From positions 1-40,104 of IMG/VR virus record IMGVR_UViG_3300037541_000361: a stretch of 40,104 nt of DNA, one strand, 5' to 3'. Position numbers and translations under genes: made by a program. Below the pieces are notes generated by a model, which saw only the letters and a program-made list of their open reading frames with translations, did not search any database and was not told where the DNA came from. This DNA comes from a virus. This document shows, piece after piece, positions 25,972-39,071 of this stretch (positions are counted from its first letter, which is position 1; each line of letters starts with the position of its first letter).

Positions 25972-26346
25972 TCATTCCAGTGAGTCCTCAAATTGCTGCC
26001 ACAAATGGCCGCGGCGTTTAGGACCACCAACCGATGCCAGGAATGGGTTGATCAAGAAGTACGTCTCCCCGGTTCTGCGATCCGCTACACGCCGCACCAG
26101 GTTCTCCTTCCGCAAGCGGGTGATCGCACTCACCGCTACCGGCAGCTTCACCTGCAACCGCTCAGCGATGTAGCTGGTCGTCACATGGGCTCTCCCGCTG
26201 CGCCAGTTGACGTAGTTCAAAAGCACCAGGAACACCGCTGCATCCCGCAGCTCCAGCTTCCGTTCACCCAACAGGGCAATGGTCGAATCGAGATCGCGCT
26301 GGTGGACCATCACGAAATTCTCGTCACCGTCTTCTCTAGGCTTCAT
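25972..26346 (-). CDS. Winged-helix DNA-binding protein, RepL/MarR-like
   Basis: 124-aa protein with a winged helix: ELRDAAVFLVLLNYVNW, VTTSYIAERLQVKLPVAVSA (helix-turn-helix), ITRLRKENLVRRVADRRTGE (recognition helix and wing) and YFLINPFLASVGG. The last motif, NP after the wing, is reminiscent of RepL-type plasmid replication proteins, so it may be a replication initiator; a MarR-like repressor is the alternative. A near-perfect palindrome lies 34 nt upstream of its start and a second long inverted repeat just beyond, which suggests autoregulation. It is the first gene of the leftward transcript that includes the large terminase. Confidence 0.7.
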   Translation of the reverse strand: MKPREDGDENFVMVHQRDLDSTIALLGERKLELRDAAVFLVLLNYVNWRSGRAHVTTSYIAERLQVKLPVAVSAITRLRKENLVRRVADRRTGETYFLINPFLASVGGPKRRGHLWQQFEDSLE

Positions 26347-26379
26347 GCAGTCAGTACAGAGGCTGCTGACGGACCTGAC

Positions 26380-26401
26380 ACCTAGGAGTCACTCCCTAGG
26401 T
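26380..26401. promoter_or_regulatory. Palindromic operator candidate before RepL/MarR-like gene
   Basis: Arms ACCTAGGAGT (26380-26389) and ACTCCCTAGGT (26391-26401) around a central C, symmetrical but for one extra C. It begins 34 nt upstream of the divergent-side gene start at 26346. The half-site CCTAGGAGT recurs in the perfect palindrome ACTCCTAGGAGT at 30429. Confidence 0.55.
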
Positions 26402-26405
26402 ATCC

Positions 26406-26440
26406 ATTGCCCCTTCTGGATCCGACCCAGTAGGGGCAAT
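26406..26440. promoter_or_regulatory. Long inverted repeat in the control region
   Basis: Left arm ATTGCCCCTTCTGG (26406-26419) and right arm CCAGTAGGGGCAAT (26427-26440) match at 13 of 14 positions, loop 7 nt. It lies four bases beyond the palindrome at 26380. It has no T-run on either strand, so it is more likely a protein-binding site, an origin dyad, or a hairpin in the leader of the leftward transcript than a terminator. Confidence 0.5.
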
Positions 26441-26631: not shown

Positions 26632-26702
26632 TTTCCCGTTTTTGGGTCGCGCGATGTGATGGCGACCTATTTCCCGGTTTTGGGTCGCGCGATGTGATGG
26701 CG
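26632..26702. repeat. Two 33-bp direct repeats, 38-bp period
   Basis: Copies at 26632-26664 and 26670-26702 differ at one base and are separated by ACCTA. The core is GGGTCGCGCGATGTGATGGC, which includes the 8-bp palindrome TCGCGCGA. The 38-bp period is not an exact helical multiple. No other copy was seen in the window. Candidate iterons of an origin, paired phage-RNA-polymerase promoters, or repressor sites. Confidence 0.8.
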
Positions 26703-27157: not shown

Positions 27158-27175
27158 CCAACAACCACCACCACC
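27158..27175 (+). promoter_or_regulatory. CA-rich leader, copy 1
   Basis: CCAACAACCACCACCACC, ending 13 nt before the ATG at 27189. No Shine-Dalgarno is present. Closely similar leaders precede the genes at 27690, 28760, 29174 and 30811. Likely an unstructured translation-promoting leader. Confidence 0.6.
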
Positions 27176-27188
27176 TGCCACTAGGGCT

Positions 27189-27614
27189 ATGACAATCCTG
27201 CGCAGCACTGAGGAGTTCGGCCGGTTCCGGCTGACGGCTGACGTGATCACGGCCGAGAGCTGTGAAGCTGGCGACGCTGCTGAGCGTGGCTGGCTGACCA
27301 GCTGGGGCTGTTTGTCTGATGAGTACGCAGACAGCTGCTGGGATCTGAGGGATCTGGCTGATCTATTTGGCAACTACTACCGGCCGGAGGGCGATGGCAG
27401 CACCCTGCCGCGGTGGCTGACGTTTGAGGCCAGCCACGACGATCTGATCAGCCCTTGCGATGGCTGGCGGTTCCTGGCTGATGAGTACGGGCCCGAGGGG
27501 GATGAGGAGGCCATCGGCGGAACCATCAGCGTCCACCGGCCGGACTGGATCACAGACGGTTCCTGGGCCCGCGTCTGCCGGCTGCTGGGCTGGCGGCCGT
27601 ACCGCTGGGCCTGA
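27189..27614 (+). CDS. Acidic, lysine-free protein of unknown function (141 aa)
   Basis: MTILRSTEEFGRFRLTADVI, then CLSDEYADSCWDLRDLADLF and ending RLLGWRPYRWA. By my count 27 Asp/Glu, about 13 Arg and no Lys, so net charge is strongly negative. The ATG at 27189 is chosen because the CA-rich leader sits directly upstream; a longer frame from 27126 would run through that leader. It is immediately followed by an ArdC-type antirestriction gene, so a DNA-mimic antirestriction or other anti-defence role is a reasonable guess, but no family was recognised. Confidence 0.7.
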   Translation: MTILRSTEEFGRFRLTADVITAESCEAGDAAERGWLTSWGCLSDEYADSCWDLRDLADLFGNYYRPEGDGSTLPRWLTFEASHDDLISPCDGWRFLADEYGPEGDEEAIGGTISVHRPDWITDGSWARVCRLLGWRPYRWA

Positions 27615-27616
27615 CG

Positions 27617-27650
27617 GCTGCACTGAGGGCCTGCGGGCCTTCTCTGCAGC
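27617..27650 (+). terminator. GC-rich hairpin between accessory genes
   Basis: Stem of 13 pairs in two blocks (GCTGCA with TGCAGC; GAGGGCC with GGCCTTC, one G-U) split by a 2x2 mismatch, loop TGCG. It begins two bases after the stop of the acidic protein gene and is followed by a CA-rich leader, not a T-run. Transcript-end or processing hairpin, by inference. Confidence 0.5.
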
Positions 27651-27659
27651 CCTCACAGC

Positions 27660-27689
27660 TGCCAACAACAACAACCACCACCGCCAGCC
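27660..27689 (+). promoter_or_regulatory. CA-rich leader, copy 2
   Basis: GCCAACAACAACAACCACCA and CCGCCAGCC lead straight into the ATG at 27690, and the first codons (ATGGCCACCACCACCACC) continue the CA pattern. No Shine-Dalgarno. Confidence 0.6.
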
Positions 27690-28673
27690 ATGGCCACCAC
27701 CACCACCAAGGCCCGCAAGGGCAGCAGCAAGGCCCGGAAGACGTACGACGGGCCCACAGCTGAAGAGAAGCTGTGCACAGCCTTGGTTGAGCTCCTGGAG
27801 AAGGGCGTCAACCCCTGGCGTCGTGACTGGGCACAGACGGGCCCTCAGGGCCAGCACCGGAACCTGATCACCGGCCAGCCGTACCGGGGCAGCAACCCTG
27901 CAGTGCTTGAGATGTGGGCCGCCTGCCGTGGGTTCTCCCTGCCGTTGTGGCTGGGGGGTGCTCAAGCCAAGGCTGAGGGCTGGCACCCGCGGAAGGGCTC
28001 TAAGGGCTGTTACGTGCTGAGGCCACAGCTCAACAAAAGAGAGCAGGAAGACGAGAACGGGCGGCCGGTGCTGGGCCCTGATGGCCAGCCCCTGATCAGC
28101 GCCTGGGTTTCGTTCAAGCCGGTTTGCGTCTTTAACGTCGCCGACTTGGTGGGCGGCACCCCTGAGGCTCAACAGGCCCTCGAGGCCCGCATCGCCGCGG
28201 CCCTGGGCGCTGTGGTGGTGAAGCCTGAGCCTGAGCGCCTGGCCGGTGCTGAAGCTGTGCTTGGTGCCTGGCCGGTGCCCACCACCTGGGCCGGTGATCG
28301 GGCTTTCTACAGCTCAGCCGCTGATCAAATCACCATGCCCACCCGGGCCCAGTTCTCAACCGCTGAGGGGCTCTATGCCACCTGGGCCCATGAGCAGGCC
28401 CACAGCACCGGCCACAGCAGCCGGCTGGGCCGCAAGCTGGGCTCAGGGTTCGGCTCTGCTGACTACGCCAGGGAAGAACTGGTGGCAGAGCTCGCCGCCT
28501 TCCTGATCTGTAACCGGCTGGAGATCAGCAGCTGCACTGAGAACCACGCCGCCTACCTGGGCAACTGGGCCGGGGTGCTCAAGGAAGGGCCCAAGGTGCT
28601 GTTCAAGGTGCTGAGCGATGCCACCAAGGCGGCCAACGCGATCTGTGGCCCTGACGTGATCGAAGAAGGCTGA
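27690..28673 (+). CDS. ardC: ArdC-type antirestriction protein
   Basis: 327-aa protein with the ArdC layout: an N-terminal ssDNA-binding domain (TALVELLEKGVNPWRRDW about residues 30-47, NLITGQPYRGSNP 58-70, a GWHPRKGSKGCYVL segment 97-110) and a C-terminal zinc metallopeptidase-like domain with TWAHEQAHSTGHSSRLG. His234, Glu235 and His238 form the HExxH motif; EELVAELAAF near 262-271 offers the third ligand. ArdC proteins protect incoming DNA from restriction, mostly on conjugative plasmids. Here it is in the accessory block after a CA-rich leader, with hairpins either side. The family call is firm; activity against a particular system is unknown. Confidence 0.92.
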   Translation: MATTTTKARKGSSKARKTYDGPTAEEKLCTALVELLEKGVNPWRRDWAQTGPQGQHRNLITGQPYRGSNPAVLEMWAACRGFSLPLWLGGAQAKAEGWHPRKGSKGCYVLRPQLNKREQEDENGRPVLGPDGQPLISAWVSFKPVCVFNVADLVGGTPEAQQALEARIAAALGAVVVKPEPERLAGAEAVLGAWPVPTTWAGDRAFYSSAADQITMPTRAQFSTAEGLYATWAHEQAHSTGHSSRLGRKLGSGFGSADYAREELVAELAAFLICNRLEISSCTENHAAYLGNWAGVLKEGPKVLFKVLSDATKAANAICGPDVIEEG

Positions 28674-28676
28674 CGT

Positions 28677-28722
28677 CTGCACTGGGCCCTTCCTGCCTGC
28701 GCCGCAGGTGGGCCCTCTGCAG
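28677..28722 (+). terminator. GC-rich hairpin after ardC
   Basis: Three-block stem: CTGCA (28677) with TGCAG (28718), GGGCCC (28684) with GGGCCC (28710), CCTGC (28692) with GCAGG (28704), 7-nt loop. It begins three bases after the ardC stop. Same CTGCACTG start as the hairpin at 27617. No T-run follows; a CA-rich leader does. Confidence 0.55.
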
Positions 28723-28736
28723 GCCTCACCGCCTGC

Positions 28737-28759
28737 CCAACAACCACCACCACCAAGCC
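28737..28759 (+). promoter_or_regulatory. CA-rich leader, copy 3
   Basis: CCAACAACCACCACCACCAA then GCC before the ATG at 28760; the coding start ATGACAACCACCACCAAG continues the pattern. No Shine-Dalgarno. Confidence 0.6.
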
Positions 28760-29131
28760 ATGACAACCACCACCAAGCCCCGCCAATGGGAGAAGAGCGA
28801 AGAGCTCGCAGCCATCAAAGAGCTGGCCGATTGCCTGGGGCCTGACAGCTACCTGGGCCCCTGGCTGGCCGATGCCCTGCCCTGGCTGGCTGATCAGCTG
28901 CGCTGTGATTACTTCCCGCAAAAAGCCCGGGAGATGGTTGAGGAGGCTGCCCGGGTGAGGGCTGAGGCCTGCTGCGATGCCATCGCCATGCGGCAAACAG
29001 CTTCGCTCGAGGCCCGCCGCCTGATGGAGAGCTGCCACGAGCTGAAAGACAAAGCAGCCGCAGAGGCAGAGGAGATCAAAGGGCGGGCATGGGAAGCCCT
29101 GCGGCAGGCCATGAAACAGCTCGAGAGCTGA
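28760..29131 (+). CDS. Unknown helical protein (123 aa)
   Basis: After MTTTTKPRQWEKSEELAAIK it continues ELADCLGPDSYLGPWLADAL and a long Ala/Glu/Arg-rich helix to the C-terminus (AAEAEEIKGRAWEALRQAMK). No membrane segment, no known motif. It stands alone between two CA-rich leaders in the accessory block downstream of ardC. The coiled-coil C-terminal half suggests an oligomer. Function unknown. Confidence 0.7.
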   Translation: MTTTTKPRQWEKSEELAAIKELADCLGPDSYLGPWLADALPWLADQLRCDYFPQKAREMVEEAARVRAEACCDAIAMRQTASLEARRLMESCHELKDKAAAEAEEIKGRAWEALRQAMKQLES

Positions 29132-29144
29132 CGGCCCTGACAGG

Positions 29145-29173
29145 CCACCACCAACAACCACCACCACCAACCC
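29145..29173 (+). promoter_or_regulatory. CA-rich leader, copy 4
   Basis: CCACCACCAACAACCACCAC followed by CACCAACCC before the ATG at 29174. A weak GGCC-CTGACA-GGCC hairpin (29133-29146) precedes it. No Shine-Dalgarno. Confidence 0.6.
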
Positions 29174-29356
29174 ATGAAGCCCGCTGACATCGCCACCGGT
29201 GCCATAGCGATCTGGGCCCTGGCCGCCCTCGCATGGCAGCAACCGCAGCCACCACAACAGCCGCGGCCTGCTGCTCACGCCATGCCTGCGCAGCCGTCAA
29301 ACGTTGACAGGCAGCTGCCAGATCGCCGCACCCTCACCCAGTTCCCTGGGCCGTGA
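29174..29356 (+). CDS. Small exported or membrane-anchored protein (60 aa)
   Basis: MKPADIATGAIAIWALAALA is a single hydrophobic helix, then a Gln/Pro-rich stretch (WQQPQPPQQPRPAAHAMP) and a polar tail. This is a signal anchor with a flexible periplasmic part. It resembles small lysogeny-conversion or superinfection-exclusion membrane proteins only in general form. Real-gene support comes from the CA-rich leader directly before its ATG. Confidence 0.55.
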   Translation: MKPADIATGAIAIWALAALAWQQPQPPQQPRPAAHAMPAQPSNVDRQLPDRRTLTQFPGP

Positions 29357-29393
29357 ACCCTGCCCGCGGCCCGTGCCTGCGCAGGGGCCACCT

Positions 29394-29410
29394 GCAGGGC
29401 TCTGCCCTGC
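29394..29410 (+). terminator. GC hairpin between accessory genes
   Basis: Perfect 7-bp stem GCAGGGC (29394-29400) and GCCCTGC (29404-29410), loop TCT, in the 71-nt gap after the small membrane gene. No T-run. Another GC palindrome CCTGCGCAGG lies just before (29376-29385). Confidence 0.4.
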
Positions 29411-29427
29411 TTCACCCGAGAGATCCC

Positions 29428-29607
29428 ATGGACCACCTCTCACTCCGTGATCGGGTGGCGATCGCCAAGCGTTCGCCCCGCCGCATCACGATCACCATCA
29501 GCCATGCCGTTTCCGAACGGCTGGTGGCAACTGCCCTCGATCAGGGCCGCAGTGTTTCCAACCTGTGCGCCTATCTGCTCGAGACCGCATCGCCACCGGG
29601 GAGCTGA
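29428..29607 (+). CDS. Ribbon-helix-helix (CopG/Arc-type) DNA-binding protein (59 aa)
   Basis: After a charged start (MDHLSLRDRVAIAKRSPRR) comes ITITISHAVSERLVATALDQ then GRSVSNLCAYLLETA: a beta strand of alternating residues, helix, Gly turn, helix, the standard ribbon-helix-helix pattern. Such proteins bind DNA as dimers and act as repressors or antitoxins. No toxin gene pairs with it clearly; the next gene (29657) is acidic and unlike known toxins. The ATG at 29428 is chosen as it leads directly into the domain; a longer frame to 29353 is Cys/Arg-rich and unlikely. Confidence 0.75.
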   Translation: MDHLSLRDRVAIAKRSPRRITITISHAVSERLVATALDQGRSVSNLCAYLLETASPPGS

Positions 29608-29615
29608 TGAATCAC

Positions 29616-29648
29616 GGGCAGCGCCTGCGCGTTGCCCTTCCTTTTCTT
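29616..29648 (+). terminator. Intrinsic terminator after ribbon-helix-helix gene
   Basis: Stem GGGCAGCGC (29616-29624) with GCGTTGCCC (29629-29637), one G-U pair, loop CTGC, then TTCCTTTTCTT. It begins nine bases after the stop. It ends 8 nt before the next ATG, so it could also act as an attenuator for that gene. Confidence 0.75.
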
Positions 29649-29656
29649 GACGTGCC

Positions 29657-29917
29657 ATGCCAACACTGACAAGCAAAGCCCTCCACCAGTGCAGCGCCGT
29701 GCTGAACTTCGACATCTCTGCAGAAGAGGCCGACCTGCTGGCATCACTGCTGAGGCCACGGACCCATCTGTTGACCGACCTGCTGGAGATCCAGGTGTTC
29801 TCTTGCCCTGAGGGCTGCACTGACTGGGCTGATACCGCTGAGGCCCTCGAGGTGGCGACCACAGCCCTGCTCAAGGTGCGGAACATCCAGTCTCAATACG
29901 AACGGGAGGGCAAGTGA
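29657..29917 (+). CDS. Unknown acidic protein (86 aa)
   Basis: MPTLTSKALHQCSAVLNFDI, then SAEEADLLASLLRPRTHLLT and EGCTDWADTAEALEVATTAL. Helical, acidic, soluble. The stop overlaps the GTG start of the following winged-helix gene (GTGA), so the two are co-translated and may work together, for example as a regulator and its partner. No family recognised. Confidence 0.65.
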   Translation: MPTLTSKALHQCSAVLNFDISAEEADLLASLLRPRTHLLTDLLEIQVFSCPEGCTDWADTAEALEVATTALLKVRNIQSQYEREGK

Positions 29918-30327
29918 ATAGCACTGCCGACGTGGCCCAGTTCCTTGGGGCTCTCAGACAAAAGAACCGAGTGGTGCCGATCGAGATAGCTGAAGCGCTG
30001 CTGCTGATTGCTGCAGGGATCGACAACATCCCTGACTTGCAGCGGGCGATGTGCGATGCCGAGGGCAACTCTCTGCCACCAGCAACCGTGAGCCGGCTGA
30101 TTGCCTCACTGCGGGGCAAAGCCCGCTACCACCAAGGGACTTGGGTGGAGAGCCCGTATTCCCTGCTGGATGTGCGGCCGCACCCGCATCGCCGAGGCCT
30201 CCAACTGCGGCTGAGTGCTGTAGGTCAGGAGCTCATCAGCGCGTACTTTGACCACTACAAAGCCCCTACAAACCTAGTAGTGGGTATGTCCACCTGCGAC
30301 GAGAAAAGCCAGTGTCAGTCTGCCTAA
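29914..30327 (+). CDS. MarR-like winged-helix regulator (137 aa)
   Basis: GTG start overlapping the upstream stop. An N-terminal helical part (VPIEIAEALLLIAAGIDNIP), a helix-turn-helix (LPPATVSRLIASLRGKARYH), then a wing SPYSLLDVRPHPHRRGLQLR and LSAVGQELISAYF, the MarR order. The second half aligns by eye with the regulator at 30458 (TVSR core; SLLDV/ALLEV; LSAVGQELI/LTAKGKALV), so the two are probably paralogues. Likely role: lysogeny control next to the integrase. Confidence 0.75.
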   Translation: MNSTADVAQFLGALRQKNRVVPIEIAEALLLIAAGIDNIPDLQRAMCDAEGNSLPPATVSRLIASLRGKARYHQGTWVESPYSLLDVRPHPHRRGLQLRLSAVGQELISAYFDHYKAPTNLVVGMSTCDEKSQCQSA

Positions 30328-30428
30328 TCGCTTCGGTCGAACTGCCTTGCCGCGGCTCCTGGACTGGGTTCTCTGTCTACCTTGAGACGCTGGGCCAGAC
30401 CCATCGCGTCTTTCTCCACCGGTGCCAC

Positions 30429-30440
30429 ACTCCTAGGAGT
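30429..30440. promoter_or_regulatory. Perfect 12-bp palindrome before second regulator
   Basis: ACTCCTAGGAGT, centre CCTAGG, 17 nt before the ATG of the MarR-like gene at 30458. Its half-site is the same as in the palindrome at 26380-26401 before the RepL/MarR-like gene. Candidate operator. Confidence 0.5.
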
Positions 30441-30457
30441 CGCCGCCGCTACGGCCC

Positions 30458-30775
30458 ATGGATTTACGTCAGCTGGAGAGGGCTCTGGCTGCTTTCTCCG
30501 TTCTCAGTCCAACGGCGTTCCCGATCCACCATGCGGAGGTCTTCCTGGTGGTCGCTCAACGCGGCCAGGCGACCTATCGGGAGTTGGAAGAGGCCCTGAA
30601 CCTGTCCAACTCCACCGTGTCCCGGACGGTTCACGCCTTGGGCGAGACGCACCGCAAGGGATACGACGGGCACGCCTTGCTTGAGGTCGTGCGCGATCCA
30701 GAGGAAGGGCGCCGTTTTGTGATCCGCCTGACCGCCAAGGGCAAGGCCCTGGTGCGGCAGATCGAGGGGCTCTGA
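30458..30775 (+). CDS. MarR-like winged-helix regulator (105 aa)
   Basis: MDLRQLERALAAFSVLSPTA, then FLVVAQRGQATYRELEEALN, helix-turn-helix LSNSTVSRTVHALGE, wing ALLEVVRDPEEGRRFVIRLT and AKGKALVRQIEGL: a compact MarR fold. A perfect palindrome lies 17 nt upstream, fitting autoregulation. It is directly upstream of the integrase gene and paralogous to the regulator at 29914. Likely part of the lysis-lysogeny switch; which of the two is the repressor cannot be told from sequence. Confidence 0.8.
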   Translation: MDLRQLERALAAFSVLSPTAFPIHHAEVFLVVAQRGQATYRELEEALNLSNSTVSRTVHALGETHRKGYDGHALLEVVRDPEEGRRFVIRLTAKGKALVRQIEGL

Positions 30776-30782
30776 ACCCTCG

Positions 30783-30810
30783 CCACAACAACCACCACCA
30801 CCACAATCCA
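30783..30810 (+). promoter_or_regulatory. CA-rich leader, copy 5 (integrase)
   Basis: CCACAACAACCACCACCACC followed by ACAATCCA before the integrase ATG at 30811. No Shine-Dalgarno. Confidence 0.6.
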
Positions 30811-31809
30811 ATGGCAGGCACTGTCCGCAAGGCCTCAGACGGCAGCTGGATTGCTGACGTCACCATCAATGGGGTCCGCCGTACTGGCAAATGCAAAAGC
30901 CGATCCGAGGCGCTGGCGCGCAAGCGTGAGCTGCTCGAGCTGCTGGTGCAGCGCGATGCAAAGCCCGCTGTGGCCCCGCCGTTCACCTTGAAAGAGGCTC
31001 GAGCGTTATCCCTACGCATCCGATGGGCAGGCACCGCCTACGAGCGCACAGCGGCCATCTACAGCCACGAGGCCGTGGATTACTTCGGGGACTACTTCCC
31101 CATCAGTGAGATCACCGCTGCTCTGGTGGATCAGTGGCGGCAGAAGCTGCTGGCCAAGGGCAACCGCCCCAGCACCGTCAACCGCAAGGTCTCAGCCATC
31201 AGGGCGATGCTCTCGGACGCTCACCTGCACGGTCACCTGCAGGAGGTGCCGCGGATGCCGCAGCAGCTGAAGCTGGTGAACACCAAGGACCGGGTGATCA
31301 GCGACGAGGAGCGCGATCGTTTCTGCCACTACTTCCGGCAGGTGGGGGAGCCCGCCGCGGCCGACCTGCTGGTGTTCCTGCTCGAGACCGCCTGCCGATG
31401 GGGCGAGGCCGAGCGGGTCAAGGGTCAAGACGTGGACCTGGTGAAGGGGAAGGTCACCTTCTGGGCCACCAAGAACGGCAAGCCCCGGTCAGTGCCGCTG
31501 ACCCGCCGTGCGATCGAGGCCATCGAGCCCCACCTGCCAGCGGTTCCAGGCCACCGCCTGTGGCCGTACAAGTACACCCGCTATCAGCACCTGTTCAACC
31601 TGGCCAAGGGGGCCCTGGGCCTGGCTGAGGACCGTGCCCTGTCCATCCACACCACCCGCCACACCTGCGCCAGCAAGCTGGCCAGCAAGGGCATCCCGCT
31701 GCACCAGCTGATGACCTACGGGGGATGGACTTCCCTGGCTTCTGTGCAGCGATACCTGCACCTGCACACAGATGCCCTGTCGGCTTGCGTTGCAGCGCTG
31801 GAGGCCTGA
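30811..31809 (+). CDS. int: Tyrosine-family site-specific integrase
   Basis: 332-aa integrase. An N-terminal arm-binding domain (GTVRKASDGSWIADVTINGV) is followed by a SAM-like core-binding domain (about 60-155) and the catalytic domain: Arg196 in ETACRWGEA, Lys221 in WATKNGKPRSVPL, His280 and Arg283 in HTTRHT, Trp306 in GGW in place of the usual His, and nucleophile Tyr315 in SVQRYLHL. All catalytic positions are present, so it should be active. It catalyses recombination between phage and host attachment sites and marks the phage as temperate or recently so. A tRNA-like half 520 bp downstream may be the attachment site. Confidence 0.95.
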   Translation: MAGTVRKASDGSWIADVTINGVRRTGKCKSRSEALARKRELLELLVQRDAKPAVAPPFTLKEARALSLRIRWAGTAYERTAAIYSHEAVDYFGDYFPISEITAALVDQWRQKLLAKGNRPSTVNRKVSAIRAMLSDAHLHGHLQEVPRMPQQLKLVNTKDRVISDEERDRFCHYFRQVGEPAAADLLVFLLETACRWGEAERVKGQDVDLVKGKVTFWATKNGKPRSVPLTRRAIEAIEPHLPAVPGHRLWPYKYTRYQHLFNLAKGALGLAEDRALSIHTTRHTCASKLASKGIPLHQLMTYGGWTSLASVQRYLHLHTDALSACVAALEA

Positions 31810-32483: not shown

Positions 32484-34895
32484 TTGAAACCCAAAATCGC
32501 CGCGTCCACCCCGGTGGACAAACTGCAGCAGCAGAGGGAAGCGAGGGAACTCGAGCGGGCGAAATGGGACGCAATCAATCAACGAGCCAAGCTGCAAGCT
32601 ATAGGCCGGGAGAGCGTTACCGAATACGGAACGGCCCTTTTTACGGATAACGCTGAGCGGGTCACGATTGCTCTGGGCCTGCTGCTGGAGGAGCTGCTCG
32701 CTAATCCATCCAAACCGGGCCCGTACTTCAGTGCCTGGCCGCTACTGCTGATGGTCACGAATCGAGGCCCTCGTGCTCTGACTTCCATCGCAATCGGTGT
32801 CGTGTTGGATCACATCAGCCAGCGGCCCACGGAACGGAAGCTGGCGGGCGCCATCGGCACGGCCCTGCAGGACGAGCTCAAGGCGGGCCGGATCGAGAAG
32901 CTCAGCCCCGGCCTGCTGCGCATGATCCAGAAGCGCAAGGGCAGCAAGGCCCTGAGCTCCCGGCAGGTGCTGGACCAGCTGCGCCTGGACATCAGCGGCT
33001 GGACGGTGGCCGAGCGCACCCAGGTGGGAGGGCTGCTGCTGCAGGTGATCGCAGCCAACAGCGACCTGATCCGCTTCGAGACAAGCCTGAAGCACGGCCG
33101 CCGCCAGAAGTTGGTGGTCGCCACCGACGAGGCCCTGGCGGTGATCAAGGCCAACCCGCCAAGGCCCCTGCCTGCACGCCGCTTGCCAATGCTCGTGCCG
33201 CCGCGGCCCTGGACGGGGATGAATGGCGGTGGCCACCTGGACAACGACCAGCCCCTGGTGCGCAGCCGGGCCGGCCTGGACCTGAGCCACCTGACCCCTG
33301 AGGCGATGACCCCGCTGCTCAAGGTGGTCAACACCCTGCAGCAGCAGGAGCTGCGCATCGACCCGGAGATGGTGCAGCTGCAGCGCTGCGCCTGGGACCA
33401 CAACATCCGCGGCCTGTTCCCGCTGACCCGTGATCCCCTCACCGAGCCGCCGCGCCCGCAGGAGCTGCTGGGCCCTGAGGAGTACAAGCGTTGGCTGAAG
33501 CAGCGGGCCGCGGCCCAGTACGACCGCAACCAAGGCGCACGGATGCGCGGCCGGATTGAGGAAACACTGCGGCAGTGCGAGGAGGTGGCCGGCCAGCTCG
33601 TGTGGTTCGCCTACTGCCTGGACTTTCGCGGCCGCATCTACAGCAGCAACCGCTATGCCACGCACCAGGGCCCGGACTGGGAAAAAGGGGCGATCGGCTT
33701 TGCCGCAGGCGAGACCTGCTCAGTTGAGGGGTTCGAGTGGTTGCTCAAGGCCGCGGCCACCCACTACGGCATCAGCCGCACGTGGCATGAGCGCCTGCGG
33801 TGGGGGCAGGAACACCTGCAGCAGATGTGCACGGTGGCCGAGGCGCCACTGGATCGGCTGGAGCTGTGGCGTGATGCCAAAGATCCTTGGCAGTTCCTGC
33901 AGCTGTGCCGGGCTATTGCCCAGCAGGTGGCCGATCCAAACACCACATGTAGTGTCCCGATCCGGTTCGACCAGACCTGTAGTGGCATCGGGATTGCAGC
34001 GGCGCTGACCCGTGATCGCCGGTTGGCACGGCTGACCAACATCAACGGCTCAATCCGCAAGGACATCTACAGCCACATCGCCCAGGAGTTGCAGCGCCTG
34101 CTGCAGCTGGACCTGAGCAACGGCACGCCAACAGAAGTCCGCAACGCTGAGCTGTGGCTGGGCTTTGGCATTGACCGCAGCCTGTGCAAGGGGCCGGTGA
34201 TGACCACCATCTATGGGGCCCAGTTCCTGGGCATCGTCGATGGCCTGGTGCAGGCCCTGGAGGAACGGCAGGCCGGGCTGAACGTCTCGCAATGGGAGCA
34301 GGCCTACCTGGCACCGGCGCGTTACTTGGCCCGCAAGATCAGCCTGCTGCTGGGTGCTGAGCTCAAGAGCTGCCTCGAGCTGCAGGCCTGGCTGCGTGCC
34401 ATCTCTAAGCGGGTGCTGGCCAAGGGCGCCCCGATGCAGTGGACCAGCCCGATGGGGGTGCCGATGCAGATGGCCCACCAGCTGGATGCACGCACCAACG
34501 TTCAGACCCTCACCAAGGGCAGCCGCAGGTGGCAGGCATGGAACGACCAGGCCGACGACGGCGAGCTCTCAGCACGGATCACCAACCGCTCGATCACGGC
34601 CAACGTGATCCACCACTTTGACGCCGCCCACTGCCAGGCAATCGTCTCCATCTGTAGTGATCAATCGATTCCGGTCCTAACAAATCACGACTGCTTTGCG
34701 ACAATTCCGAGCCGTGCAGGGTGGTTGCATCAGTCCCTGCACAACCAGCTTCGGACCCTGTATGCAACCGATTGGCTGACGGAAATGTCGGCAGAGATCC
34801 GTTCGGCCGCAAGGGTTTCTAGGTTTAAGGCCCCGCCGATTGTCGGCGACCTGTGCCCCGGCGAGATCGGACAGAACCCACACTGCTTCTCTTGA
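32484..34895 (+). CDS. Single-subunit (T7-type) DNA-directed RNA polymerase
   Basis: 803 aa from TTG (T7 RNAP 883). All key motifs are present: LDFRGRIYS (379-387) corresponding to the DxxGR region, motif A IRFDQTCSGIG with Asp496, motif B DRSLCKGPVMTTIYGAQFLG with Arg565, Lys569, Tyr577 and Gly578, motif C NHDCFATIP with His735 and Asp736. It should transcribe phage genes from its own promoters; the CTGCAC-type elements are candidates. TTG at 32484 is used since the frame closes at 32427 and no ATG precedes the domain; GTG at 32514 is an alternative. No Shine-Dalgarno is seen, suggesting low translation. Confidence 0.96.
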   Translation: MKPKIAASTPVDKLQQQREARELERAKWDAINQRAKLQAIGRESVTEYGTALFTDNAERVTIALGLLLEELLANPSKPGPYFSAWPLLLMVTNRGPRALTSIAIGVVLDHISQRPTERKLAGAIGTALQDELKAGRIEKLSPGLLRMIQKRKGSKALSSRQVLDQLRLDISGWTVAERTQVGGLLLQVIAANSDLIRFETSLKHGRRQKLVVATDEALAVIKANPPRPLPARRLPMLVPPRPWTGMNGGGHLDNDQPLVRSRAGLDLSHLTPEAMTPLLKVVNTLQQQELRIDPEMVQLQRCAWDHNIRGLFPLTRDPLTEPPRPQELLGPEEYKRWLKQRAAAQYDRNQGARMRGRIEETLRQCEEVAGQLVWFAYCLDFRGRIYSSNRYATHQGPDWEKGAIGFAAGETCSVEGFEWLLKAAATHYGISRTWHERLRWGQEHLQQMCTVAEAPLDRLELWRDAKDPWQFLQLCRAIAQQVADPNTTCSVPIRFDQTCSGIGIAAALTRDRRLARLTNINGSIRKDIYSHIAQELQRLLQLDLSNGTPTEVRNAELWLGFGIDRSLCKGPVMTTIYGAQFLGIVDGLVQALEERQAGLNVSQWEQAYLAPARYLARKISLLLGAELKSCLELQAWLRAISKRVLAKGAPMQWTSPMGVPMQMAHQLDARTNVQTLTKGSRRWQAWNDQADDGELSARITNRSITANVIHHFDAAHCQAIVSICSDQSIPVLTNHDCFATIPSRAGWLHQSLHNQLRTLYATDWLTEMSAEIRSAARVSRFKAPPIVGDLCPGEIGQNPHCFS

Positions 34896-34896
34896 G

Positions 34897-34912
34897 ACAC
34901 ACCTAGGTGTGT
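34897..34912. promoter_or_regulatory. Perfect 16-bp palindrome before SSB
   Basis: ACACACCTAGGTGTGT, centred on CCTAGG, two bases after the RNA polymerase stop. A further ACCTAGG follows at 34924-34930. Same CCTAGG centre as the palindromes at 26380 and 30429. Operator or terminator stem; there is no T-run. Confidence 0.5.
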
Positions 34913-34927
34913 TGCAGATCTGCACCT

Positions 34928-34950
34928 AGGCCGATACGGTTCCGCTGCAC
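34928..34950 (+). promoter_or_regulatory. Composite AGGCCGATACGGT...CTGCAC element before SSB
   Basis: AGGCCGATACGGT (34928-34940), four bases, CTGCAC (34945-34950). Same order and spacing as 17122-17144 before the tail fibre. TACGGT (34935) fits a TAnnnT -10 box. An extra CTGCAC lies at 34920. The SSB ATG is 18 nt downstream. Confidence 0.45.
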
Positions 34951-34968
34951 TCCACCCGTAGCGAGCAG

Positions 34969-35631
34969 ATGCCGCGACGAGCAACGCTTATTACGCCTGT
35001 AGGCGAGTCGGCCTGGGCCAAGATCCTTGGCGAGGCACCCGAGCCCTTTGATGCCGATGGCCCCCGGGTTTGGTCGGTCTCCCTGCTGCTGGACCCCAAC
35101 GACCCCGCGACCGTCGAGTTCATTGAGAAGCTCGAGGCCGAGTTCGCTGAGCTGCACGGCGGCGGCAAGGTCAAGTACAGCCCCCATGCCTGGCCCTTTG
35201 GTGAGGACACCACCAGGGACGAGCAAGGGCGCAAGATCCCAACCGGGAAAATGCGCATCAACTTCAAGCGCAAGGAGACCACGGCTCGCGGCGATCTGAA
35301 GTCGCCCCCTGTGGTGACCGACGCCAAGCTCAACCCTTGGCCCGCCACCAAGCTGATCGGCAACGGCAGCAAGATCCGCGTTGCCTTTCAGCCCTGGGGA
35401 TGGGACACCCCGACTGGCAAGGGCATGAGCCTCGAGCTGCTGCAGGTCCAGGTGCTCGATCACGTCGCTTACGAAAGCGCTGAAGACACCCCGGTGTTTG
35501 AGAAGACCGAGGGCTTTGTGCTCGAGGAAGAAGAGACCCCGGTGTTTGAGCGCGAGCCAGAACCGGAGGTGCTCAGCCCCAGCCAGCGGCTGCGCAAAAG
35601 CCAGGAGGTTTCTGATGAGATCCCCTTCTGA
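34969..35631 (+). CDS. Single-stranded DNA-binding protein (gp2.5-like)
   Basis: 220-aa SSB of the T7-like cyanophage type. The N-terminus ATLITPVGESAWAKILGEAP begins an OB fold, with WSVSLLLDPNDPATVEFIEK and GKMRINFKRKET strands, and a long acidic tail (FVLEEEETPVFEREPEPEVL) ending DEIPF with a terminal Phe, as in gp2.5, where tail and Phe contact polymerase and helicase. Here no phage polymerase or helicase was found, so the tail would have to engage host proteins. Stop overlaps the next start. Confidence 0.9.
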   Translation: MPRRATLITPVGESAWAKILGEAPEPFDADGPRVWSVSLLLDPNDPATVEFIEKLEAEFAELHGGGKVKYSPHAWPFGEDTTRDEQGRKIPTGKMRINFKRKETTARGDLKSPPVVTDAKLNPWPATKLIGNGSKIRVAFQPWGWDTPTGKGMSLELLQVQVLDHVAYESAEDTPVFEKTEGFVLEEEETPVFEREPEPEVLSPSQRLRKSQEVSDEIPF

Positions 35632-36023
35632 TGGGATTACGCACAGCCGACTTCGTGCTGCCGGTGCCGCTGCAGCCGAAGTCCCGACCGCGGTTCACGC
35701 TGCGCGGCCGGCCCTACAAGGACAGCCGTTACAGGGAATGGACGGACACTGTTCGCTCAATCCTGACCGAGTGGTGGACACTGCCGCCGCTCGAGAAGGG
35801 GCAAGTGACGGCTTTGCACTTGACCTTCTTTGGCCCGGGCACTTCCGATCTGGACAACCTGGCGGGCGCCGTGATGGATGCCGGCCGGGGGATTGTCTGG
35901 GCCGACGACCGGGTGACGGTGCTGCAGCGCATCGAGGCGTCCTGGCAGCAGAAGCCCAAGAACGCCCAGTCCATCTACTTAAAGGTGATCTGGAATGACA
36001 ACTCCGTTCCCGCCGCTGCGTGA
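35631..36023 (+). CDS. RusA-type Holliday junction resolvase
   Basis: 130-aa nuclease. VLPVPLQPKSRPRFTLRGRP and KDSRYREW at the N-terminus, then the acidic cluster GPGTSDLDNLAGAVMDA (Asp73, Asp75) and IVWADDRVTVL (Asp92, Asp93), the RusA active-site pattern. It cuts branched DNA during recombination, repair or before packaging. It sits where T7 has endonuclease I (gp3), so it is a functional replacement. The start overlaps the SSB stop by one base. Confidence 0.9.
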   Translation: MGLRTADFVLPVPLQPKSRPRFTLRGRPYKDSRYREWTDTVRSILTEWWTLPPLEKGQVTALHLTFFGPGTSDLDNLAGAVMDAGRGIVWADDRVTVLQRIEASWQQKPKNAQSIYLKVIWNDNSVPAAA

Positions 36024-36201
36024 GCAGGAGTGCGGCAACTGCCGCTATGGGCGTGGCCCGAAGGAACTTGGCACCTTCATTTTTTGCCAACGCCACCCGC
36101 CCGTACTCACGCCTTTTGACAACATCTCACTCAACAACTGGCCTGGGGTTTCGCCCAAGGAGTGGTGTGGTGAGTGGGCCCCCCAGGAGGTGGCGGCATG
36201 A
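35995..36201 (+). CDS. Small four-Cys zinc-binding protein (68 aa)
   Basis: ECGNCRYGR with Cys13 and Cys16, FCQRHPP with Cys31, and EWCGEW with Cys58: four cysteines placed for one zinc or iron-sulphur site. Short phage proteins with CGNCRY...C...WCGEW are common, function unknown to me. The start is 29 nt inside the resolvase gene; its stop overlaps the next start by ATGA. Confidence 0.75.
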   Translation: MTTPFPPLREQECGNCRYGRGPKELGTFIFCQRHPPVLTPFDNISLNNWPGVSPKEWCGEWAPQEVAA

Positions 36202-36767
36202 AGTGCCCTCACTGCGGCCACGAGAAGAGCCGGGTCACCGAAACCCGTGCTCTGCCTGACGCCGATCGCCGGATCCGGCTGTGCCAAGGGTGCGGCAAAA
36301 CCTTCCAAACCCTCGAGCGCATCTGCGTCTTTGTGGGCCGGGCTGCTGGCTACGTCGAGATGGGTGCACCCGTCCCGACATTGGCAGTGGTGCCGGACGT
36401 GCCCAAGAAGCAGGCCAAGTCTGCTGCCCATTACGTCGCCCACCTGAACGACACCGCTTTGGGTGCCATCACACCCGAAGCACAGCCGCTGCTGGTGCAG
36501 TGGTGGAACGAAAGCCGTCGCTCAAAGCACAGGGGCAATGCCACCTGGACTGAAGCGGCATGGCAAGCCAGCGTTCATCGCGTTGCCCACCTGTCCCACC
36601 CGCAACAGGTCTTGCTCGCACTCGCCGGTGTTGAGCACGGCTGGCAGGCACTCAAGCCTGAGTACCTGAAGCAGGAGCTGGCCAAGCCCACGGCCAGTGG
36701 ACGACCGATGCCCAAAGACCCGGCGATGCTCGCCGCCCTTGAGCAATGGCCAGAGCAAACCGCCTGA
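36198..36767 (+). CDS. NrdR-like zinc ribbon fused to an unknown C-terminal domain (189 aa)
   Basis: MKCPHCGHEKSRVTETRALP with Cys3 and Cys6 and LCQGCGKTFQTLERICVF with Cys29 and Cys32 match the NrdR zinc ribbon, which binds DNA. The ATP-cone that follows in NrdR is missing. Instead, after a linker, there is a helical domain (TWTEAAWQASVHRVAHLSHP, then LALAGVEHGWQALKPEYLKQ) of the kind found at the end of DnaD/phage replication proteins. This suggests a replication or helicase-loading role rather than nucleotide-reductase control. ATGA overlap with the previous gene. Confidence 0.7.
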   Translation: MKCPHCGHEKSRVTETRALPDADRRIRLCQGCGKTFQTLERICVFVGRAAGYVEMGAPVPTLAVVPDVPKKQAKSAAHYVAHLNDTALGAITPEAQPLLVQWWNESRRSKHRGNATWTEAAWQASVHRVAHLSHPQQVLLALAGVEHGWQALKPEYLKQELAKPTASGRPMPKDPAMLAALEQWPEQTA

Positions 36768-37282
36768 CACCAGAGACGTTTCTGGCGGTCGCCGAAATGA
36801 TCGCAGCTCATCTGCGCATCAAGGAGGCCGACCGCTGGAGCGCTCACATCTGCCGGCTCAAGTTCCACAGCTTCACCTCTGAGTTCCCAGAGATCAACGA
36901 GCCCCAATTCATGTGGGCTGCTGAGCAGTGGATTCAGAGCCTGAAGCCCGACGTCTTCAAGCGCTACCCCACCTGGAAAGAACTGATGGCACCGCTGTAT
37001 CGCACAGAAAACGGGATGGCCAACAGGAGCTGGGGGTTCAAGGAAGAGCTGCCCGCCTTCTGCCAACCGTCACAACAGCAGCTGGCTCTCCTGCCCACCA
37101 GCCCTCGGACCCTGGCCGCACCACCTGACCCACACAACTCCGATGCCTATGTGCCGTTCAGCTGCACTGAGCATCCGTTGCTTCCACCAGCAGCAAACGA
37201 CGAGCCCGGTCTGACGCCTCAGCGCTGGGCTGACTACCTGAGCTGGGTCAAGGAAGAGGAAGCCCGGTTGGATGCGAACTGA
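36746..37282 (+). CDS. Unknown protein, possible helicase-loader-type replication factor (178 aa)
   Basis: ETFLAVAEMIAAHLRIKEAD, WSAHICRLKFHSFTSEFPEI, FMWAAEQWIQSLKPDVFKRY and PTWKELMAPLYRTENGMANR form a helical N-terminal domain reminiscent of G40P/DnaT-type helicase loaders (small helices ending in a PTWKEL motif). The C-terminal third is Pro-rich and unstructured. It overlaps the zinc-ribbon gene by 22 nt, so both are likely made together. With no phage helicase visible, it may recruit the host helicase. Low certainty. Confidence 0.6.
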   Translation: MARANRLTPETFLAVAEMIAAHLRIKEADRWSAHICRLKFHSFTSEFPEINEPQFMWAAEQWIQSLKPDVFKRYPTWKELMAPLYRTENGMANRSWGFKEELPAFCQPSQQQLALLPTSPRTLAAPPDPHNSDAYVPFSCTEHPLLPPAANDEPGLTPQRWADYLSWVKEEEARLDAN

Positions 37283-37482
37283 TGCAACCGCTGATGAGTC
37301 ATGCCGAGCTCAGGGCAATCCTTGAGCACGGTCTTCTCACTGGCAAATGGTCAGTGCTGCAGTTCAACAAAAAGGCTCGTGATGTGGTGCTGCCTAGCAA
37401 GCAGTTCCTGGAAGAGCACCCAAGGTTTGAAGACATGGAGCTTCGGGACATGGAGGCCTTTCGCAAACACCACTACCCATGA
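37282..37482 (+). CDS. Unknown small protein (66 aa)
   Basis: MQPLMSHAELRAILEHGLLT then GKWSVLQFNKKARDVVLPSK and a charged end. Start overlaps the upstream stop by one base; an inner ATG at 37294 would also work. The stop overlaps the next start (ATGA). Mixed alpha-beta, no recognised family. Part of a chain of tightly packed small genes before the exonuclease. Confidence 0.7.
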   Translation: MQPLMSHAELRAILEHGLLTGKWSVLQFNKKARDVVLPSKQFLEEHPRFEDMELRDMEAFRKHHYP

Positions 37483-37706
37483 GCTGGGATCAATACAAGA
37501 AGGGCCAAGAGGTTCGATTCCGTGCCCTTGGCGGCTGGGTCCGCGGACACATCAGCGAGACCTATGGCAATTCGGTTTCCGTGATGTTCAATCGCGGCGC
37601 ACAACAACGAAACATCCGTGTCTACGACCTTCGCAACATCGAGCTATGCCCGCCAAACAAGAAGAACCCATCGACGTTTCAAGAGCCGCCGTCGTTCGAC
37701 TTTTGA
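37479..37706 (+). CDS. Unknown small beta-rich protein (75 aa)
   Basis: MSWDQYKKGQEVRFRALGGW, then VRGHISETYGNSVSVMFNRG and RNIRVYDLRNIELCPPNKKN. The KGQEVRFRALGGWVRGHI pattern is that of a small SH3/KOW-like barrel, which in other proteins binds nucleic acid or protein. ATGA overlap with the previous gene. Overlapped by the next gene in another frame for 61 nt. Confidence 0.7.
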   Translation: MSWDQYKKGQEVRFRALGGWVRGHISETYGNSVSVMFNRGAQQRNIRVYDLRNIELCPPNKKNPSTFQEPPSFDF

Positions 37707-37816
37707 AATACGGCCTTAGGTATCACGAGGAGGCCGTCGAACGAAGCTACGCACAAGTGTGGTGGGAGGGCTACATCAGGGCCTGTGAACAGATCCTCGA
37801 AATGGAGGGGCAGTAA
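37646..37816 (+). CDS. Unknown small helical protein (56 aa)
   Basis: MPAKQEEPIDVSRAAVVRLL, then KYGLRYHEEAVERSYAQVWW and a short acidic end. The ATG at 37646 lies 61 nt inside the previous gene; the frame upstream of it is overlapped by other genes and not used. Its stop shares a base with the next start (TAATG). Helical, no recognised family. Confidence 0.6.
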   Translation: MPAKQEEPIDVSRAAVVRLLKYGLRYHEEAVERSYAQVWWEGYIRACEQILEMEGQ

Positions 37817-38043
37817 TGAGCTGGATGGTCCCTGGCCGCCTGCCGCAGGAAGGGCCTGAACCGATCCTTGGCCCAGGTGTCAGTCACCCCAAACCCAAGG
37901 AGGCGACTCGAATGTTCAAGCTTGAGGTCAAGCGCCCTGGCTACAGGGCAATGCGTGTCACCAAGCCAGCGCCAACCCTGGCCAAAGCAATCCTCTACTG
38001 CCAGAACATCTGGCCCGACTCAACCGTTACCCCAATCCAATGA
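37816..38043 (+). CDS. Unknown small protein (75 aa)
   Basis: MSWMVPGRLPQEGPEPILGP, then FKLEVKRPGYRAMRVTKPAP and TLAKAILYCQNIWPDSTVTP. The second half (KLEVKRPGYRAMRVTKPAPT) may begin at an inner ATG (37912) with an AAGGAGGCG ribosome site right before it, so two starts may be used. No family recognised. Confidence 0.65.
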   Translation: MSWMVPGRLPQEGPEPILGPGVSHPKPKEATRMFKLEVKRPGYRAMRVTKPAPTLAKAILYCQNIWPDSTVTPIQ

Positions 38044-38252
38044 ACCTTCTGCAGAACTGCTTGTCGGTACAGAACGCCCTCGGCGAGTACGGCATCGATG
38101 ACAAGCGCCGCATGAAAGAGGTGATCCGCGAGATCGCCAACACCATTCGCACCTGGGCGCCAGATCCAGGGCAGGCACGGATCTGCCACTTGGCCATCAA
38201 CGAGGTGGCGGATCGTCTGATTCGAGAAACGCAAGAGCTAGCCGATGGATAA
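38040..38252 (+). CDS. Unknown small helical protein (70 aa)
   Basis: MNLLQNCLSVQNALGEYGID, DKRRMKEVIREIANTIRTWA, then RICHLAINEVADRLIRETQE. All helical and soluble. ATGA overlap with the previous gene; its last 8 bases overlap the following membrane peptide. No known motif. Confidence 0.7.
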   Translation: MNLLQNCLSVQNALGEYGIDDKRRMKEVIREIANTIRTWAPDPGQARICHLAINEVADRLIRETQELADG

Positions 38253-38334
38253 AGACACCGCTCTCACCCTGGCCACCTGCCTGTTCTGTGCGGTGGCAAT
38301 CGGCATCCTCTACATCGGCACCATTCACCCATGA
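38245..38334 (+). CDS. Micro-protein with one membrane segment (29 aa)
   Basis: MDKDTALTLATCLFCAVAIG followed by ILYIGTIHP: a single hydrophobic helix of about 20 residues after three charged ones. The start overlaps the upstream gene and the stop overlaps the exonuclease ATG (ATGA), the same coupling as all its neighbours, which supports a real gene despite the size. Possible membrane-targeted modulator of host functions; unknown. Confidence 0.55.
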   Translation: MDKDTALTLATCLFCAVAIGILYIGTIHP

Positions 38335-39071
38335 AGGCTCTGATTGACACGGAGTTCTACCTGTTCACCGCAGCCTCTGCCTGCCAATACGAGGTCGAGT
38401 GGGAGCCTGACGTCTGGACCTACTTCTGCCGGCACGACGATGCCAAGGAAGTCTTCCAAGAAACGCTTGGCCAGTTCCGCGAGGCTCTGCCTAACCACGA
38501 CTTGGTGCTGGTGTTCGGCAGCTCCACGTCATTTCGCTATGGGGTCTGGCCCCAGTACAAGGGCAACCGCAAGAAGTACCGCAGGCCTGCGGGCTACCGA
38601 AAGCTGATCGAGTGGGTCCACAACGCTGGCCCCGCCCGTGGCTGGCAAGCGATCGAGCTGCCTGACATCGAGGGCGACGACGTGCTCGGCGTGCTCTATG
38701 AGGAGGGCGATGTGATTGTCTCTGTTGACAAGGACATGCTCACCCTGCCCGGCCTGCACTTGCGCGATGGCGAGGTGGTTGAAATCAGTCGCCTTGAAGC
38801 CGATCGCAACTTCTACCGCCAGGTGCTGACTGGCGATGCCAGTGATAACTATCCCGGCTGCCCCGGCGTTGGCCCTGTTGGTGCAGACAAGTTGCTTGCT
38901 GGTTGCTCAACAGAAGTGGAGATGTGGGATGAGGTGCTCAAGGCCTTCCTCAAGAAAGGCTTTGGCGAGGTCTATGCCAAGACGCAAGCCCGCTGTGCAC
39001 GCATCCTTCGCGCAGGTGAGTACGACTTGACGAGCGGCACTCCCCTGCTATGGAGTCCCCCGGTAGCCTGA
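38331..39071 (+). CDS. 5'-3' exonuclease (gp6-like, FEN/PIN fold)
   Basis: 246-aa nuclease of the T7 gp6 type (300 aa). MKALIDTEFYLFTAASACQY begins the fold, then LVLVFGSSTSFRYGVWPQYK and NRKKYRRP, the acidic IELPDIEGDDVLGVL and VIVSVDKDMLTLPGL, and the helix-three-turn-helix GDASDNYPGCPGVGPVGADK. Metal-binding acids are all present. In T7 it removes RNA primers and degrades host DNA. It is the last of the nucleic-acid genes before the structural block, as in T7. Confidence 0.93.
   Translation: MKALIDTEFYLFTAASACQYEVEWEPDVWTYFCRHDDAKEVFQETLGQFREALPNHDLVLVFGSSTSFRYGVWPQYKGNRKKYRRPAGYRKLIEWVHNAGPARGWQAIELPDIEGDDVLGVLYEEGDVIVSVDKDMLTLPGLHLRDGEVVEISRLEADRNFYRQVLTGDASDNYPGCPGVGPVGADKLLAGCSTEVEMWDEVLKAFLKKGFGEVYAKTQARCARILRAGEYDLTSGTPLLWSPPVA

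Follow-up and report, generated by a model that had tools for sequence, protein, structure and literature searches.

The sequence analysed here, record IMGVR_UViG_3300037541_000361, is a stretch of 40,104 bases (the window) that covers about 98% of the genome of a temperate T7-like cyanophage akin to the isolate Synechococcus phage S-SRP02. In textbooks, T7 serves as the example of a phage equipped with a four-protein replisome of its own. The window carries the RNA polymerase (RNAP), structural genes and TerL expected of T7-like phages (Autographiviridae), and its replication block at positions 32484-39071 contains neither a DNA polymerase nor a gp4-type primase-helicase, although the polymerase is counted among the essential genes of such phages (PMC11092137). 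We consider it probable that the phage has no gp5/gp4 replisome of its own and that its genome is copied by the host machinery by way of a phage-encoded module. This dependence on the host replisome is proposed because both enzymes are absent from the window and from complete relatives, gp4 is exclusively exchanged for the module, the single-stranded DNA-binding protein (SSB) carries a characteristic C-terminal tip, and some relatives encode DnaN homologues.

The genes of the block are all located on the plus strand. The first encodes the single-subunit T7-type RNAP (32484..34895; phrog_414, 3e-129; PF00940, 5e-54) and the last a 5'-3' exonuclease of the T7 gp6 type (38331..39071; phrog_107, 2e-49; PF02739, 6e-12); they are each 66% identical to their counterparts in the nearest isolate, S-SRP02 (MW822601; p034 in the case of the exonuclease). 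In between lie the genes for a gp2.5-type SSB with the C-terminus ...SDEIPF (34969..35631; phrog_112, 6e-23; T7 gp2.5 structure 1je5, E 5e-4), a RusA-type Holliday junction resolvase (35631..36023; PF05866, 4e-9), a cysteine-rich, zinc-ribbon-like protein of 68 amino acids (aa) (35995..36201) that belongs to no Pfam family and has homologues in 21 listed loci, a protein consisting of an NrdR-type zinc ribbon and a conserved C-terminal helical region without an ATP-cone (36174..36767; PF22811, 5e-11), a 178-aa protein without a family match at the place of the gp4 primase-helicase (36746..37282), and small conserved open reading frames (ORFs) in overlapping frames with homologues in relatives (37282-37482, 37479-37706, 37556-37816, 37816-38043 and 38040-38252). 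Most adjoining frames from the SSB to the exonuclease overlap by 1-29 bases, and the largest gene in this interval encodes 197 aa. The initial annotation had listed RusA, two zinc-ribbon proteins, a loader-like protein (the 178-aa protein) and small unknown proteins in this stretch. It had also stated that polymerase and primase-helicase lie between SSB and exonuclease in T7-like cyanophages; this is so in Syn5, where these two genes lie in the interval.

The absence of the enzymes was determined by profile searches. DNA_pol_A had no match in the window, in 18 related records or in 14 further ones; in the latter search the control Syn5 matched at 1.7e-34, and P-SCSP1p, a phage of the MPP-C group, gave no match. 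DnaB_C was likewise without a match in the window and in the 14 further relatives, with both Syn5 and P-SCSP1p matching as controls, and was found in two of 19 records, the uncultured Mediterranean phages MedDCM-OCT-S31-C1 and S37-C6. A family B polymerase (PF00136) or the alpha subunit of DNA polymerase III (Pol III; PF07733) as a replacement was rejected, as neither profile matched any of 21 records including the window, while cellular controls were recognized. Six complete genomes (G029, G032 and G038-G041) were screened with custom profiles of T7-like polymerase and primase-helicase, not with PF00476 and PF03796; from all 12 T7-like control blocks, these profiles recovered the polymerase as well as the primase-helicase. 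Thus, the earlier statement that no polymerase A or DnaB-type motif occurs in the window is confirmed by searches with working controls.

The initial annotation had pointed to the sequence between the window ends as a place where such a gene might reside. One end of the window lies inside the portal gene and the other shortly before it. Alignment to a relative that is 98% identical at the RNAP (L001) indicates a gap of about 736 bp, which in L001 holds one small collar-type ORF and the N-terminus of the portal protein. A polymerase or helicase in the unseen part was rejected as the gap sequence could be read in L001 and contained neither gene in its approximately 0.74 kb; unless the window phage departs from L001 in this region, the missing part would be unable to hold a polymerase.

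The distribution of the genes among relatives strongly indicates that the loss is not peculiar to the window. In 17 complete genomes, i.e., 16 related records with end overlap and the circular S-SRP02, no DNA polymerase was found. Thirteen of them (G003, G007, G013, G014, G015, G020, G023, G038, G039, G040, G041, S-SRP02 and the uncultured Mediterranean phage MedDCM-OCT-S38-C3) lack a primase-helicase, and the gp4 site is taken by the 178-aa protein together with the C-terminally extended NrdR-type zinc-ribbon protein. Three others (S31-C1, S37-C6 and G032) have kept the primase-helicase and lack both the 178-aa protein and the NrdR C-terminal region. The remaining genome, G029, has neither, and also no integrase and no RepL-like gene. 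The loader-like gene and gp4 occurred together in no locus. The same picture emerged from 79 distinct RNAP sequences, which comprised 61 from loader-bearing phages, five from gp4-bearing sisters, one with neither, seven on contigs that end early and five outgroup members, four of the latter with gp4 and polymerase and P-SCSP1p with gp4 only. None of the 74 distinct RNAPs of the clade occurs alongside a polymerase, and the 66 for which the module could be read divide into 61 with the loader-like gene versus five with gp4. The absence of the replisome genes is therefore real and lineage-wide. The RNAP tree was a quick one with a midpoint root, and it left the order of the gp4-bearing sisters and the two loader groups, and the choice between a single and a repeated origin of the loader-like gene, unresolved. 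The block of G029 (L119) has a 421-aa ORF of unknown function; a remnant resembling the C-terminus of the 178-aa protein and a resolvase-like ORF among the tail genes were seen by eye.

The C-terminus of the phage SSB provided the third line of evidence. A tip of the form [DE][ILVMA]P[FW] was present in 57 of 63 distinct gp2.5-type SSBs of loader-bearing phages (DEIPF in the window), and six deviated (VPFS, IPY, LPS, ELW, KIPF and VSW). The pattern was found in none of five gp4-bearing sisters, although two of these end in PF (CPF and VIPF), and in two of 17 polymerase-bearing T7-like phages (RHEph01, DDDIPF, and ProddE, DDVPF; EQIPF of RHph_I20 narrowly fails), none of them among the seven cyanophages of this set, which end in DF or EF. 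The SSB of Escherichia coli ends in DDDIPF, and the C-terminal hexapeptide of bacterial SSB (SSB-Ct) is described as an interaction hub for DnaG, the chi subunit of Pol III, PriA and exonuclease I (PMC5872125); that the SSB of the cyanobacterial host carries the tip is taken from a general statement on bacteria in the same source. The gp2.5 tail of the loader-bearing phages thus carries an SSB-Ct-like tip of the bacterial acidic-xPF kind.

In addition, ORF14 of S-SRP02 is annotated as DNA polymerase III beta subunit, and homologues occur at L075, L015 (G007), L010, L011, L012, L013 (G013), L014 (G014) and L097. A comparison of these phage proteins with 18 cyanobacterial DnaN sequences by hhalign yielded a probability of 99 and an E-value of 4e-18 over 180 columns at 31% identity, while six unrelated profiles and a reversed DnaN profile gave E-values of 0.14 to 0.61. 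Phage homologues and cyanobacterial DnaN also share the C-terminus MPVQIR; matches of the phage proteins to Pfam and to PDB sequences were below threshold. With 229-255 aa, compared to about 380 aa for the three-domain DnaN, they align to DnaN positions 127-382 with a large deletion and may be regarded as a shortened clamp.

Of the two proteins at the gp4 site, the 178-aa protein is under purifying selection (dN/dS pairs from 0.08/0.56 to 0.19/1.16); the pairs of the NrdR-type protein range from 0.09/0.39 to 0.24/1.17. The NrdR zinc ribbon (PF22811) was present in 27 of 27 aligned members. No ATP-cone match was obtained, and PDB matches to NrdR sequences span profile positions 8-78 only. The C-terminal region, with the conserved motifs WW..(S/A)R..K and GWQ.L, is restricted to loader-bearing phages, and gp4-bearing sisters keep the ribbon alone; in the structural model (pLDDT 68.8) solely the zinc ribbon was matched and the C-terminal region had no fold match. 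The 178-aa protein is mostly helical in its AlphaFold2 model (pLDDT 82). A search of BFVD with this model returned the S38-C3 orthologue at 1e-15, followed by weak matches from E 0.12 upwards. Nine informatively named proteins among the 50 of 74 matches listed comprised six replisome organizers, one N-terminal domain of the replicative helicase inhibitor G39P, one DUF6475 protein and one unrelated protein, all named matches having an E-value of 1.1 or more. As a small helical protein of a replication block, with weak fold matches of the G39P or replisome-organizer type, it may be compared with phage helicase loaders or replisome organizers, e.g., G39P of SPP1 and P of lambda. The designation as loader is weakly suggested by these models, and we give it moderate weight as a working hypothesis.

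In the mechanism that we propose, the zinc-ribbon protein would recognize or hold the phage origin, the 178-aa protein would bring host DnaB, and the SSB tip would bring further host partners, e.g., DnaG or PriA, so that elongation would be carried out by Pol III and the clamp of the host. Opening or priming of the origin may still be a task of the RNAP, and in the relatives encoding a shortened DnaN homologue the use of the clamp might be tuned by the phage. It is, in our estimate, an even call whether an entire T7-like lineage has swapped its self-contained replisome for an adaptor set, consisting of a zinc-ribbon initiator, a new family of helicase loaders, the SSB-Ct tip and, in some members, a host-derived shortened clamp, with the gp4-bearing, polymerase-less sisters representing an intermediate step.

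Several observations weigh against such a host-directed module. The 178-aa protein matched neither a family nor a PDB entry naming a loader, and a PDB fold for its model was rejected as no match reached E <= 0.001 (the best, with a VIA Z of 3.6, was spastin); also the BFVD matches beyond its own orthologue all had E-values of at least 0.12. Unlike G39P, it has no match to PF11417 (0 of 10), and hhalign yielded no relation of the module to lambda P or lambda O. The module yielded neither an origin nor a set of iterons; an origin of the lambda type, within the initiator gene, was rejected as the region 36100-38400 contains one lone 18-nucleotide pair. The SSB tip is present in two polymerase-bearing phages as well, and its counts are plain counts of related phages that are not independent of each other. 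A DnaN homologue is absent from the window, as it is from S31-C1 and S37-C6, and G029 is a complete genome with neither the module nor gp4. The initial annotation is partly supported. Its proposal of host dependence is backed by the gene absence, the module swap, the SSB tip and the DnaN homologues; its suggestion of a loader finds weak support in the names of BFVD matches, and its suggestion of a RepL-like initiator is not upheld, as detailed below.

Loss of the polymerase alone has been described earlier. Eighteen cyanopodoviruses of the MPP-C group (P-SCSP1 group) are reported to lack a polymerase and to have the primase/helicase among nine core genes, and replication by host DNA polymerase I (Pol I), by host Pol III or by a divergent polymerase was proposed (Cai et al., 2022, PMC9860041). 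These phages are like the window phage T7-like cyanophages without DNA polymerase, but differ in that the primase/helicase is kept, as seen from the DnaB_C match of P-SCSP1p; in addition, the protein in the SSB place of P-SCSP1p ends in FEEEF rather than xPF, and no loader module occurs in the first 15 kb of its record. S31-C1 and S37-C6 (Nohivirus and Oinezvirus) are closer, as polymerase-less sisters with a zinc-ribbon gene in the block, but have retained gp4 and have neither the 178-aa protein nor the NrdR C-terminal region. In S-SRP02 and S38-C3, block order, loader-like gene, NrdR-type protein and the lack of polymerase and gp4 are as in the window, and in S-SRP02, where the loader-like gene is SSRP02_p029 and the NrdR-type gene p028, the integrase gene is also upstream of the RNAP gene; across the collinear block of RNAP, SSB, RusA, NrdR-type protein, loader-like protein, exonuclease and portal, the window proteins are 42-91% identical to those of S-SRP02. 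S-SRP02 differs by possessing the DnaN homologue and lacking ArdC, the reverse being true for the window.

Alternatively, the host polymerase might be used while initiation depends on transcription by the phage RNAP, as in T7-like priming, the 178-aa and zinc-ribbon proteins acting as regulators or host-takeover factors. The retained RNAP and gp2.5-type SSB, the lack of a loader match at the sequence level and the zinc ribbon, which as an NrdR-type domain belongs to transcription factors, would agree with this. However, the pair takes the place of gp4 and never accompanies it (61 versus five of 66), a swap that regulators would not need, and most BFVD matches with a name are to proteins of replication; we therefore regard this explanation as unlikely. 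Recruitment of host Pol I instead of Pol III appears improbable. It is among the proposals made for MPP-C (Cai et al., PMC9860041), and family A, which is gp5-like, is the ancestral type of the T7 polymerase; however, the DnaN homologues of the relatives and the SSB-Ct tip indicate a Pol III replisome, and the missing helicase would be left unexplained. Still less credit is given to the idea that ORFs without matches conceal a polymerase or helicase that is fragmented or has diverged greatly, namely those of 939 aa (10978-13797) and 1124 aa (13745-17119) or the small ORFs at 37282-38252, even though a divergent polymerase was also among the options considered by Cai et al. (PMC9860041) for MPP-C. 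Both large ORFs belong to the structural block, flanked by the genes for an endolysin-domain protein and the tail fibre, and S-SRP02 likewise has large genes there; no gene of the SSB-to-exonuclease interval exceeds the 197 aa given above, while the custom profiles recover both enzymes in all control blocks. Finally, two absent core replication genes might point to a defective or helper-dependent phage, but 13 complete genomes have the same gene set and dN is far below dS in the module genes. Growth of the isolated relative S-SRP02 has already largely refuted this explanation, to which we assign hardly any probability.

In the literature searched, no published report of a joint loss of polymerase and primase-helicase or of a replacement module was found, judged by titles and abstracts, and the S-SRP02 paper (PMC8790148) alone names S38-C3, S31-C1 and S37-C6. 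MPP-C showed that the polymerase may be dispensed with; in the present lineage the helicase-primase is gone too, with a candidate for its replacement, and the SSB tail has changed. Cai et al. (PMC9860041) left open how MPP-C phages take over the replisome, and as both S-SRP02 and its Synechococcus host (SR-C1) are cultured, takeover of a cyanobacterial replisome by a T7-like phage is now testable. S-SRP02 is described to have a latent period of about 24 h and a burst size of 50 (PMC8790148), and the latent periods of MPP-C are stated to be longer than those of MPP-B (PMC9860041); this slowness fits host-dependent replication but proves nothing. The S-SRP02 paper contains neither the word 'primase' nor 'helicase', and it refers to the exonuclease ORF as DNA polymerase I and includes 'DNA polymerase' in a concatenated tree (PMC8790148). 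The 'DNA polymerase I' in question (L016:22389-23129) is a 5'-3' exonuclease of 246 aa, and this correction of the published annotation bears on the tree. DNA polymerase is thus a risky marker for cyanopodoviruses.

Outside the block, the initial annotation had suggested that a RepL-like protein might start replication. The corresponding winged-helix protein (25972..26346, minus strand; PF05732, 4e-5) scored 23.6 bits with the RepL profile at a cut-off of 20.3, but the orthologues of S-SRP02 (17.3) and S38-C3 (12.9) remained below it, and the window protein scored similarly as a winged helix of the MarR or HTH_36 type. As the gene furthermore adjoins the terminase gene and is shared with a relative in which gp4 is retained, a role as RepL-type initiator is not supported. 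Just upstream of this gene, at 26340-26410, are CCTAGG-containing palindromes, which also occur in L010 and L011 and look like the operator of an autoregulated DNA-binding protein. Two direct repeats of 33 nucleotides, 97% identical and 38 nucleotides apart, are located in a divergent intergenic region (26632-26702) and are also present in L004, representing a candidate origin or operator. At 27158-30814, a CAACAACCACCACCACC-type leader, with seven copies in the repeat family, directly precedes the ATGs of early genes at about 27189, 27690, 28760, 29174 and 30811 and could be a translation leader or an RNA-binding site. One of these early genes (27690-28673) encodes an ArdC-like antirestriction protein with PF08401 and a zincin-like PolyVal metallopeptidase domain, which is patchily distributed in relatives.

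A tyrosine integrase (30811..31809, plus strand; PF00589, 4e-19; phrog_1, 2e-50) and a MarR-type regulator are encoded upstream of the RNAP, and the T7-type structural set of the window comprises a portal fragment, the scaffold, the major capsid protein, tail tubes A and B, the tail fibre and TerL. In a loader-bearing phage contig within a cyanobacterial metagenome-assembled genome (MAG), a RuvC-like resolvase was seen by eye in the place of RusA (L237:5419-5895). A search for integrated copies, made with the RNAP in 400 genomes of the family to which the Cyanobium MAG belongs, yielded matches in 29 genomes; the four strongest besides the Cyanobium MAG itself (G268, G175, G391 and G402) lay on contigs of 5.8-44.8 kb, on which no host flank was seen. 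Other T7-like RNAP frames of the same family, with E-values of 1e-44 to 1e-39, are located on long contigs (G263:C1:748896-750137, G137, G163 and others) and are possibly relics of other T7-like prophages.

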